Assembly: GCF_021287135.1 (NCBI RefSeq)
Contig: NZ_JAJTBB010000025.1
Span: 1 to 46,942 of the forward strand
From: Acidovorax sp.
GTDB lineage: Bacteria > Pseudomonadota > Gammaproteobacteria > Burkholderiales > Burkholderiaceae_C
DNA length: 46,942 nucleotides
Direction: 5' to 3'
In this document: positions 37,743 through 46,479 of the stretch, in pieces
Layout: each line of letters begins with the position of its first letter
Numbering within the stretch: the stretch's first letter is position 1
Notes under the pieces: generated by a model
Database searches by the model: none
What the model saw: only the letters and a program-made list of their open reading frames with translations
What the model was told of the DNA's origin: nothing
Translations under genes and position numbers: made by a program

Positions 37743-37978
37743 AAGTATGATCAGAAATCGGCTGCGCCGGACCCGGCCGCAAGCACCGGAGCGACGACGG
37801 TGCTTTGCTCTCCAAAGGAACCGTGGCGCAGCCTCTGCGCGGGACTGTCGCACATTTCGCGGTTTGAACCGTATGGCGGGATTCTCGGTCGAAAATGGCC
37901 GGGCGCGGCGCGGTTGTCTGGCGGCCGCCACGCTTTCCCCGCGCTCGGTGGGGCCGGCGGAACCGCAGCCGGAGTAAA

Positions 37979-38068
37979 ATGACGGCAACTTCAATGCACA
38001 AGAGCGAGAAAGGCAATCTGGTTATGACACCGCGAACTACCTCGGAGATCACTCTCGCCGGCCGCTGA
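37979..38068 (+). CDS. Candidate threonine-rich leader peptide of the thrS operon
   Basis: A 29-codon frame with six threonine codons (Thr2, 4, 17, 20, 21, 25); the dense part reads MTPRTTSEITLAGR at the C-terminal end. GGAG lies 4 bases before the ATG, rather close. Internal ATGs at 37994 and 38024 could serve instead, and the last would keep the threonine-dense part. The stop is 42 bases before a terminator hairpin that precedes thrS. Leader peptides rich in the cognate amino acid act in attenuation: ribosome stalling on threonine codons would reflect scarce Thr-tRNA, which is what thrS restores. Confidence 0.6.
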   Translation: MTATSMHKSEKGNLVMTPRTTSEITLAGR

Positions 38069-38125
38069 GGCTGGCTGTTCGCGCCTGCACGAGATTGCAC
38101 TTCCCCCTCCAAAAGCGCGGACCGG
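38058..38125 (+). promoter_or_regulatory. Candidate antiterminator pairing in the thrS leader
   Basis: CCGGCCGC (38058-38065), the last codons of the leader ORF, can pair with GCGG-A-CCGG (38117-38125) with one bulged A. That uses the left arm and loop of the downstream terminator. A ribosome at the stop codon would cover the first element, while one stalled on the threonine codons at 38036-38041 would leave it free. This pairing is inferred from sequence. Confidence 0.5.
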
Positions 38126-38139
38126 TTCCGCGCTTTTTT
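38111..38139 (+). terminator. Rho-independent terminator (attenuator) ahead of thrS
   Basis: Perfect 11-bp stem AAAAGCGCGGA / TCCGCGCTTTT with loop CCGGT and continuing T. It points at thrS, whose ATG is 56 bases further on, and no complete gene on this strand precedes it except the leader ORF. It is therefore positioned to attenuate rather than to end a gene. Confidence 0.88.
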
Positions 38140-38195
38140 GTTTCCGGGCCTGGCGCGTGCCCGATTTCTGATTCACGAAGAGAAAGACAGCTCCC

Positions 38196-40115
38196 ATGAT
38201 TCACATCACGCTTCCGGATGGTTCGCAACGCGAGTTCCCTGGTCCGGTCACGGTGGCCGAGGTGGCCGCTTCCATCGGTGCAGGCCTGGCCAAGGCCGCC
38301 CTGGCCGGCAAGATTGGCGACAAGGTAGTGGACACCAGCTACCAGATCACGGCCGACAGTCCGCTGTCCATCGTGACCGCCAAGGACGCTGATGGCCTGG
38401 AAGTGATCCGCCACTCGACGGCCCACTTGCTGGCCTATGCCGTCAAGGAGCTGTTTCCCGAAGCGCAGGTCACCATCGGGCCGGTGATCGAGAACGGCTT
38501 CTACTACGACTTCGCCTACAAGCGCCCCTTCACGCCCGAGGACCTGGCCGCAATCGAAAAGCGCATGGCCGAGCTGGCCGCCAAGGACGAGCCCGTGGTG
38601 CGGCGCGTGCTGCCGCGTGACGAGGCCGTGGCCTATTTCAAGGGCCTGGGCGAGAACTACAAGGCGGAGATCATCGCCAGCATCCCCAGCAACGAGGACG
38701 TGAGCCTGTACCGCGAGGGCAGCTTCGAAGACCTGTGCCGCGGCCCTCACGTGCCCAGCACGGGCAAGCTCAAGCACTTCAAGCTGATGAAGGTGGCGGG
38801 AGCCTACTGGCGCGGCGACCATCGCAACGAAATGCTGCAGCGGGTGTATGGCACCGCCTGGGCCAGCAAGGAAGAGCTGCAGCAGTACCTCACCATGCTG
38901 GAAGAGGCCGAAAAGCGCGACCACCGCAAGCTGGGTCGTGAGCTGGACCTGTTCCACCTGGACGAGCATTCGCCTGGCACGGTGTTCTGGCACCCCAAGG
39001 GCTGGGCGCTGTGGCAGGAGGTGGAGCAGTACATGCGCCGCGTGTACCGCGACAACGGCTACCAGGAGGTGAAGGGGCCGCAGATCCTGGACAAGAGCCT
39101 GTGGGAGAAGACGGGCCACTGGGACAAGTACCGTGACAACATGTTCACGACGGAGTCGGAAAAGCGCGAGTACGCGCTCAAGCCGATGAACTGCCCGGGC
39201 CACATCCTGATCTACAAGCAGGGCATCAAGAGCTACCGCGACCTGCCGCTGCGGTACGGCGAGTTTGGCGCCTGCCACCGCAACGAGCCGACCGGTGGCC
39301 TGCACGGCATCATGCGCGTGCGTGGCTTCACGCAGGACGACGGCCACATCTTCTGCACCGAAGAGCAGGTGCAGGAGGAATGCGCCAACTACACGGCCCT
39401 GGTGCAGAAGGTCTACAAGGACTTCGGCTTCACCGACATCATCTACAAGGTGGCCACGCGCCCCGAGGCGCGCATCGGCTCGGAAGAAGCCTGGGACCGC
39501 GCCGAAAAGGCGCTGATGGACGGCCTGCGCCACTCGGGCTGTGAATTCGAGATCGCCGAAGGCGAGGGCGCTTTCTACGGCCCGAAGATCGAGTACACGC
39601 TCAAGGACGCACTGGGCCGCCAATGGCAGTGCGGCACGATGCAGATCGACCCCAACCTGCCCGAGCGCCTGGACGCCGAATACGTGGCCGAAGACGGCAG
39701 CCGCAAGCGCCCCCTGATGCTCCACCGTGCCACGGTGGGCAGCATGGAGCGTTTCATTGGCATGCTGATCGAGCACTACGCCGGCGCCATGCCGGTGTGG
39801 CTGGCTCCCGTGCAGGTGGCGGTGCTCAATATCACCGATGCCCAGGCCGATTACTGTCGCGAAATTGCCGCACAGCTGCAAAAAGCACTGCCGAATCAAG
39901 ACCTTAGGGTGGTGACCGATCTGCGCAACGAGAAGATTACGTATAAAATACGGGAGCATTCGTTGCAAAAGCTGCCGTACATCCTCGTCGCGGGCGACAA
40001 GGAAAAGGCCGCCGGAGCCGTCGCAGTGCGTGGCCGTGGCAATCGTGACCTCGGCGTGATGTCCGTTGAAGCGTTCGCTCAGTTGATCGCCCAGGACATC
40101 GCCACCAAAGCCTGA
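38196..40115 (+). CDS. thrS: Threonyl-tRNA synthetase
   Basis: ThrRS charges tRNA-Thr. The 639-residue protein has an N-terminal TGS domain ([28 protein letters not shown]), and a SAD editing domain with the HSTAHLL motif and downstream [10 protein letters not shown]. The class II catalytic core has [36 protein letters not shown] and [21 protein letters not shown], and an anticodon-binding domain ends the protein. It is the first full gene of a thrS-infC-rpmI-rplT-pheS-pheT-ihfA cluster and lies behind a probable attenuator. In E. coli thrS is controlled by translational repression, so the mechanism here would differ. Confidence 0.97.
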
Positions 40116-41582: not shown

Positions 41583-41784
41583 GTTCACGATGAGTGGCTA
41601 TCGTTCTGATAGCTGCTTGCGCAATAACAGCAAGGGCTAGGGCTTGAAAAGGCGCTAGCCCTTGTTCATTTTCACGGGTCGATAAAGAACGATTTGCGCA
41701 CAACGGGTGGAGGCAAGACGCCTGCCGCAGGGCGATGCCGCCGGTGCATTCCCCTTTGTTTGCGCAAGTCCTGAAAGAGTCGGT
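41583..41784 (+). other. rplT-pheS intergenic region
   Basis: 202 bases. It holds repeat copy 9 and an imperfect hairpin AAGGGCTAG ... CTAGCCCTT with a 13-base loop and a T-rich stretch after it (about 41631-41670), a possible weak terminator or attenuator. No phenylalanine-rich leader ORF was found. Confidence 0.5.
41597..41643 (+). repeat. Comamonad-type short repeat, copy 9
   Basis: GGCTATCGTTCTGATAGCTGC head with palindromic CTATC/GATAG, core AGCTGCTTGCGC, then AGCAAGGGCTAGGGC. It lies between rplT and pheS. Confidence 0.72.
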
Positions 41785-46360: not shown

Positions 46361-46437
46361 CGGCGTGTAGCGCAGCCTGGTAGCGCACTTGCATGGGGTG
46401 CAAGGGGTCGCGAGTTCGAATCCCGCCACGCCGACCA
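46361..46437 (+). tRNA. tRNA-Pro (anticodon GGG)
   Basis: 77-nucleotide cloverleaf. Acceptor stem CGGCGTG / CACGCCG, D-arm with GTAGCGCAGCCTGGTAGCGCAC, and anticodon stem CTTGC / GCAAG with a seven-base loop ATGGGGT giving anticodon GGG (reads CCC). The T-arm contains GTTCGAATC, and CCA is encoded at 46435-46437. The C1-G72 pair and GGG fit a proline tRNA. Confidence 0.97.
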
Positions 46438-46448
46438 TTGATAGCAAG

Positions 46449-46479
46449 AGCCCAGAATCGAAAGATTCTGGGCTTTTTT
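46449..46479 (+). terminator. Rho-independent terminator after tRNA-Pro
   Basis: Perfect 11-bp stem AGCCCAGAATC / GATTCTGGGCT with GAAA tetraloop and T6, 11 bases past the CCA end. Confidence 0.95.

Follow-up and report, generated by a model that had tools for sequence, protein, structure and literature searches.

Organization of the thrS locus

In the 46,942-nt stretch of Acidovorax sp. DNA analyzed here (hereafter the window), a 453-base gap separates a glycosyltransferase-like gene on the opposite strand (start 37742) from thrS (start 38196). The forward strand of this gap holds a TAAAAT hexamer, a ribosome-binding region, a 14-codon open reading frame (ORF) and a strong terminator (Table 1). 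The best named match of the encoded threonine–tRNA ligase (ThrRS) is from Acidovorax delafieldii, at 89% identity. Gene identification placed infC, rpmI, rplT, pheS, pheT and ihfA 3′ of thrS, bearing out the gene order proposed in an earlier note on this DNA.

Table 1. Features of the thrS leader in the window
Feature	Position	Strand	Basis
TAAAAT, probable −10 box	37975..37980	+	TANAAT position conserved in relatives
Conserved ribosome-binding region of the leader peptide, GCGAGAAAGGC	38003..38013	+	Near-invariant 5′ of the leader ATG in inspected leaders
Leader peptide ORF, MTPRTTSEITLAGR, 14 codons plus stop	38024..38068	+	Core conservation; in-frame Thr
Region 1, CGCGAAC, overlapping the CGA-ACT codons	38031..38037	+	Ribosome-free fold; swap test
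Small hairpin around the stop, GCCGGCC (38057–38063)/GGCUGGC (38069–38075)	38057..38075	+	Fold of this single sequence
Region 2, GUUCGCGC, swing arm for region 1 or 3	38077..38084	+	Fold; relatives
Terminator left arm, AAAAGCGCGGA	38111..38121	+	Terminator scan; fold
Region 3, GCGCGGAC, in the terminator left arm	38115..38122	+	Fold; 2:3 swap test
Terminator right arm (region 4) and U-tract	38127..38139	+	Terminator scan; fold
thrS, threonine–tRNA ligase, regulated gene	38196..40115	+	NCBIfam TIGR00418, 723 bits

Promoter and start of the leader ORF

A TANAAT sequence lies 48–57 nt 5′ of the leader ATG in all 29 genus leaders that carry the conserved core described below (30 loci were scanned; L104 does not have the core). 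In the broader close set of 85 leaders, TANAAT occurs 30–62 bases 5′ of the ATG in 64, compared to 24 for the reversed hexamer. A promoter scan of the region returned no consensus −35/−10 pair. We infer that transcription starts near 37987, which would place the 5′ end of the RNA downstream of the ATG at 37979.

That ATG had been taken as the start of a 29-codon leader ORF. The open frame from 37979 to 38068 does exist and contains six Thr codons, but translation is very unlikely to begin at 37979 because the ATG (37979–37981) shares the last two bases of the conserved −10-like TAAAAT. As a counterpoint, many members of the genus also have an in-frame start 15 codons upstream, because TAAAATG itself contains ATG. 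The peptide MTPRTTSEITLAGR has four Thr codons (at 38027, 38036, 38039 and 38051) rather than the five previously assigned to the second half of the longer ORF.

Conservation of the leader in the family

We searched 150 family genomes for the 18-base core GGTTATGACACCGCGAAC, allowing at most one mismatch. One copy each was found in 119 genomes, and the reversed control was found in none of the 150. Judged by these searches, the leader is conserved beyond chance. In addition to the window, the close set used throughout contains 24 named loci and 60 genomes that we selected from the 119 core-positive ones, for the most part taking one from each genus. Both the order (Burkholderiales, in the GTDB sense) and the family names of our comparison sets were deduced from named thrS loci. 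A scan of viral contigs returned four loci with a 17-base core and a different 5′ flank.

Among the 31 core-negative genomes, the leader of G342 departs from the core at two positions. A search for thrS in the remaining 30 gave 29 matches and 28 readable upstream regions, which we divided by script and by eye; chance alone had set the script's "core" flag in 4/10 regions. Six have a diverged leader (L362, L366, L372, L379, L380 and L385), 12 have a hairpin without the ORF and 10 have neither. The pattern that the earlier note would take as refuting the attenuator, a terminator kept without the ORF, is thus partly observed, in 12 of the 28. We read these ORF-less relatives as probable losses of the leader because core-negative genomes are smaller, with a median of 3.1 Mb compared to 4.5 Mb for core-positive genomes (relatedness not corrected for).

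The hairpin and U-tract before thrS without a leader ORF were observed in L356, L358–L361, L363–L365, L368, L373, L378 and L381. Most of these hairpin-only relatives have genomes below 3.5 Mb.

Threonine enrichment across the order

To look beyond the family, we located thrS in 291 of 300 genomes and read the upstream region for 179, of which 123 yielded a terminator. A motif-free test scored ORFs of 7–30 codons preceded by a Shine-Dalgarno sequence and located before the terminator, in 123 regions from 87 genera and 35 families. The best Thr count averaged 2.35, whereas dinucleotide shuffles averaged 0.43; Thr thus reached z 26.5, the runner-up being Arg (z 11.1), and 57/123 regions had at least three Thr where 4.7 were expected; like all statistics across leaders in this work, these take no account of relatedness.

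For the ORF search and for the pairing, swap and frame tests we chose the core CG[AG]AC, which was used neither in the motif-free test nor in listing leaders that lack Arg. The core-based search identified an ORF in at least 69/179 order regions, a number that includes four doubtful ORFs (L129, L160, L176 and L274) and is nevertheless an undercount because the script picked an upstream terminator and missed the visible leaders L117–L119. Without the doubtful ORFs, 65 rows remain, covering 21 of 50 families. The frame test covered 149 leaders, leaving out L129, duplicates and ORFs with fewer than three codons after the core, and keeping L160, L176 and L274. In frame, Thr accounts for 23.1% of the codons downstream of the Arg-Thr core; the two other frames give 2.0% and 3.7%. 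The Thr frequency at successive codon positions after the core is 58, 55, 28, 26, 14, 17, 2 and 1%.

The peptides diverge widely across the order (MFRTRTTTQSC, MSFRTTTTGSLNLA, MFKRTTTTRISR, MPRTRTTTGVFSRRG, MAVRTTTTHP and MNTNTTRTTTTRHT), and in MTPLTTLERLIR and MRPPTTLQRKTR the Arg is lost and Thr kept. The retention of Thr codons despite drift, proposed earlier as a check, is therefore observed, even without Arg. Leaders with only one or two Thr also exist (MIIRTCVAVLKS, MTPRTFLLKR). On these counts, the thrS leader appears to be the short ORF rich in cognate codons that is expected of an attenuator.

The codons ACA, ACT and CGA, all present in the leader, are used 0 times in thrS, rplT, pheS and pheT of the window. 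CGA encodes the Arg in 43/46 first Arg-Thr pairs of the motif-free set. Slow decoding of CGA might sharpen the response to Thr-tRNA.

Alternative pairings in the leader RNA

The strong intrinsic terminator-like hairpin with a U-tract spans 38111–38139 and begins 42 bases after the ORF stop, as had been noted before. It thus separates the ORF from the structural gene, the position of an attenuator's terminator. It is the single terminator-like site found in its region, compared to 1.8 expected in shuffles of such size, so its presence alone does not exceed chance.

We predicted folds for three ribosome states. Without a ribosome, region 1 pairs with GUUCGCG (38077–38083) of region 2, and the terminator forms. 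When a ribosome is placed at codon 5 or 6 of the nascent RNA, regions 2 and 3 form an antiterminator of eight pairs alongside the small hairpin. A ribosome at the stop codon of the full RNA leaves the terminator. These predictions for the window fit an attenuator model.

The earlier note had placed the antiterminator arm at CCGGCCGC (38058–38065). On paper, the left arm and loop of the terminator offer GCGG-A-CCGG as a partner for this sequence, but we rejected CCGGCCGC as the main arm, since the fold with a stalled ribosome puts GCCGGCC in its own hairpin. The predicted folds better support an arm at GUUCGCGC.

We examined these pairings in 82 of the 85 close leaders and in 63 order-wide leaders (147 before removal of duplicates and short spacers). 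The same stretch takes part in both helices in 79/82 close leaders and in 52/63 order-wide leaders, where shuffles would give 50.3 and 41.3, respectively. Mean z scores of the pairing energy for 1:2 and 2:3 are −1.18 and −1.61 in the close set and −0.75 and −0.88 order-wide. At the level of single leaders the signal is modest, with energies beating shuffles at 5% in 25/82 (1:2) and 33/82 (2:3) close leaders and in 10/63 and 12/63 order-wide.

A swap test, which also left out L129, compared the pairing of each leader's arm to its natural partner with its pairing to partners taken from other leaders. For 2:3, only 1 of 20000 permutations was as good in the close set; order-wide, 4 of 20000 were. 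For 1:2, none of 20000 was as good order-wide; the close-set result is weak (953/20000), with region 1 hardly varying there because the set was picked by the core. The mutually exclusive, co-varying 1:2, 2:3 and 3:4 pairings of an attenuator are found in these leaders, although close leaders show little 1:2 co-variation. The median distance from the stop to the start of region 2 is 1 nt, so a ribosome at the stop could mask it, as the model needs.

At equilibrium, the terminator is favored even with a stalled ribosome, by ~6 kcal/mol in the window (probability 0.93) and by a median of 8.6 kcal/mol across 144 leaders; the switch would therefore have to be kinetic. The same measure gives 10.6–10.8 kcal/mol for thrL (thrABC) and 11.3 kcal/mol for pheM (pheST), both accepted attenuators of E. 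coli. As the gap here is no worse, we do not regard the energetics as evidence against the attenuator model.

The spacer before the terminator (38089–38110 in the window) is pyrimidine-rich, with a mean of 67% in 84 leaders and at least 70% in 32 of them, compared to a mean of 47% and 0/81 in control stretches upstream. That the terminated leader acts in trans as a CU-rich small RNA is offered as an idea only.

A model for threonine-dependent attenuation

We build on four observations: the sequence parts of the leader, the conservation of these parts, the enrichment for Thr, and arms whose best fit is to their natural partners. Core conservation, Thr enrichment and the arm swap tests all support the earlier proposal of a threonine-responsive leader-peptide attenuator before thrS, and we consider it highly likely, from sequence comparison, that the leader is a ribosome-mediated transcription attenuator of thrS that senses charged tRNA-Thr.

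The start site, stall, switch and sign of the response would then be as follows. RNA synthesis would begin near 37987, and a ribosome would start the 14-codon peptide at 38024. When charged Thr-tRNA is scarce, the ribosome would stall at ACT/ACC (38036–38041) and cover region 1, leaving region 2 to pair with region 3, so that the terminator is blocked and thrS is transcribed. With plentiful Thr-tRNA, the ribosome would reach the stop (38066–38068), its footprint extending into region 2; with region 2 masked, regions 3 and 4 would pair and transcription would stop near 38139. Without a ribosome, 1:2 and 3:4 would form and transcription would likewise end. If read-through extends past thrS, threonine supply may be linked to IF-3, L35, L20, PheRS and IHF.

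Other explanations were weighed against this model. The hairpin could be a constitutive terminator or 5′ stabilizing element that fixes a low level of thrS mRNA, with no sensing by the ORF. The 12 core-negative relatives with a hairpin and no ORF speak for such an element, but it leaves the conserved start, the in-frame Thr enrichment and the fit of each arm to its own partner unexplained, and we think it very unlikely. Another possibility, that the ribosome is arrested by the nascent peptide (MTPRT...) on a signal other than Thr-tRNA and that the same RNA switch follows, is in our view very improbable. MTPRT is near-fixed in the close set, wobble bases included, where most leaders were picked by a pattern covering MTPRT; beyond that set, however, the neighbors of Thr vary freely (MFRT, MFKRT, MPRT, MAVRT, MTPLTT and MRPPTT), and the enrichment of Thr is confined to the six codons that follow the core. 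We also considered whether CGAAC is conserved because it pairs with the T-loop of a tRNA encoded upstream, and rejected this because the window has no such tRNA and yet keeps the core.

E. coli thrS is a classic example of autorepression, in which the synthetase acts on the mRNA that encodes it through mimicry of its tRNA, the operator loop resembling the anticodon of tRNA-Thr. The same could hold for this same gene here, with ThrRS binding the leader and repressing thrS translation. Our scans targeted hairpins shortly before thrS whose loop resembles the tRNA-Thr anticodon (U, xGU, purine). A first pattern, which missed the E. coli operator, gave no match in the window (37950–38195). A relaxed pattern, applied within 100 nt of thrS, recovered E. 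coli and 19/28 loci from other orders, compared to 5/179 order loci; control scans matched 0 to 2 of 28 and 1 to 13 of 179, respectively. A still laxer setting gave 20/28 and 10/179. The 28 loci are the best-scoring of 111 other-order genomes with thrS rather than a random draw. With no operator-like hairpin in the window and an order count inside the control range, we rejected an E. coli-type operator here and consider repression by ThrRS extremely unlikely, though a ThrRS site of some other shape may exist.

A possible exchange of regulation at thrS

Short ORFs with at least three Thr show the reverse distribution, at 2/28 other-order and 63/179 order loci. A tRNA-Val(GAC) box lies upstream of thrS in 22/28 other-order and 102/179 order regions, confirmed by ARAGORN in 12 of 12 loci checked; none was found upstream of thrS in the window. 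These distributions suggest that repression by ThrRS gave way to attenuation in this lineage. We give roughly even chances to a fuller scenario, in which ThrRS autorepression was exchanged for the Thr attenuator in an ancestor of much of Burkholderiales, often behind the same tRNA-Val, and in which the rare codon pair CGA-ACT may sharpen the sensor by slow CGA decoding just ahead of the Thr codon. Should a large related lineage indeed sense charged tRNA-Thr through a leader peptide at thrS, two solutions to one problem of thrS control could be compared and the change dated.

Relation to known systems

Leader-peptide attenuation is already known both for a synthetase (pheM) and for Thr (thrL). 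pheM shares with the present leader a peptide of cognate codons and a terminator in front of genes for aminoacyl-tRNA synthetases, a location in the same gene cluster, a common fold logic and a similar energy gap; it differs in sensing Phe and in lying inside the cluster before pheS, whereas the leader here reads Thr and precedes thrS. thrL likewise joins a Thr-rich leader peptide to a terminator but controls threonine biosynthesis, and its peptide is unlike MTPRTTSEITLAGR. The E. coli thrS system shares the gene and, often, an upstream tRNA-Val(GAC) box; it differs in its protein-bound operator, which is not seen here. Vitreschak and colleagues are said to have carried out older comparative work on attenuators. 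According to PMC3858243, E. coli ThrRS binds hairpins of the thrS leader and blocks the 30S subunit, and PMC5688073 mentions short 5′ UTRs before the B. cenocepacia tRNA-synthetase genes BCAL3373 and BCAL3436.

No report of a leader-peptide attenuator at thrS was among the matches listed from the openly licensed literature. What is apparently new is an attenuator of known kind at thrS, and the apparent regulatory exchange lends it further interest. A scan of the window at the gathering thresholds of Rfam 15 (T-box included) returned tRNA only, and a permissive scan of 37940–38210 returned three chance-level matches, all on the other strand, so we found no known Rfam family for the leader beyond chance.

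Two further features were observed in and next to the cluster. Between rplT and pheS, the position of pheM in E. coli, an inverted repeat at 41630–41668 (GCAAGGGCTAG ... CTAGCCCTTGT) is followed by a short T-rich stretch; no Phe-rich ORF was seen ahead of it, and the repeat is absent from the terminator scan output. 3′ of the cluster, the stretch 46361–46477 holds a tRNA-Pro(GGG) gene and a strong terminator-like hairpin (46446–46477).
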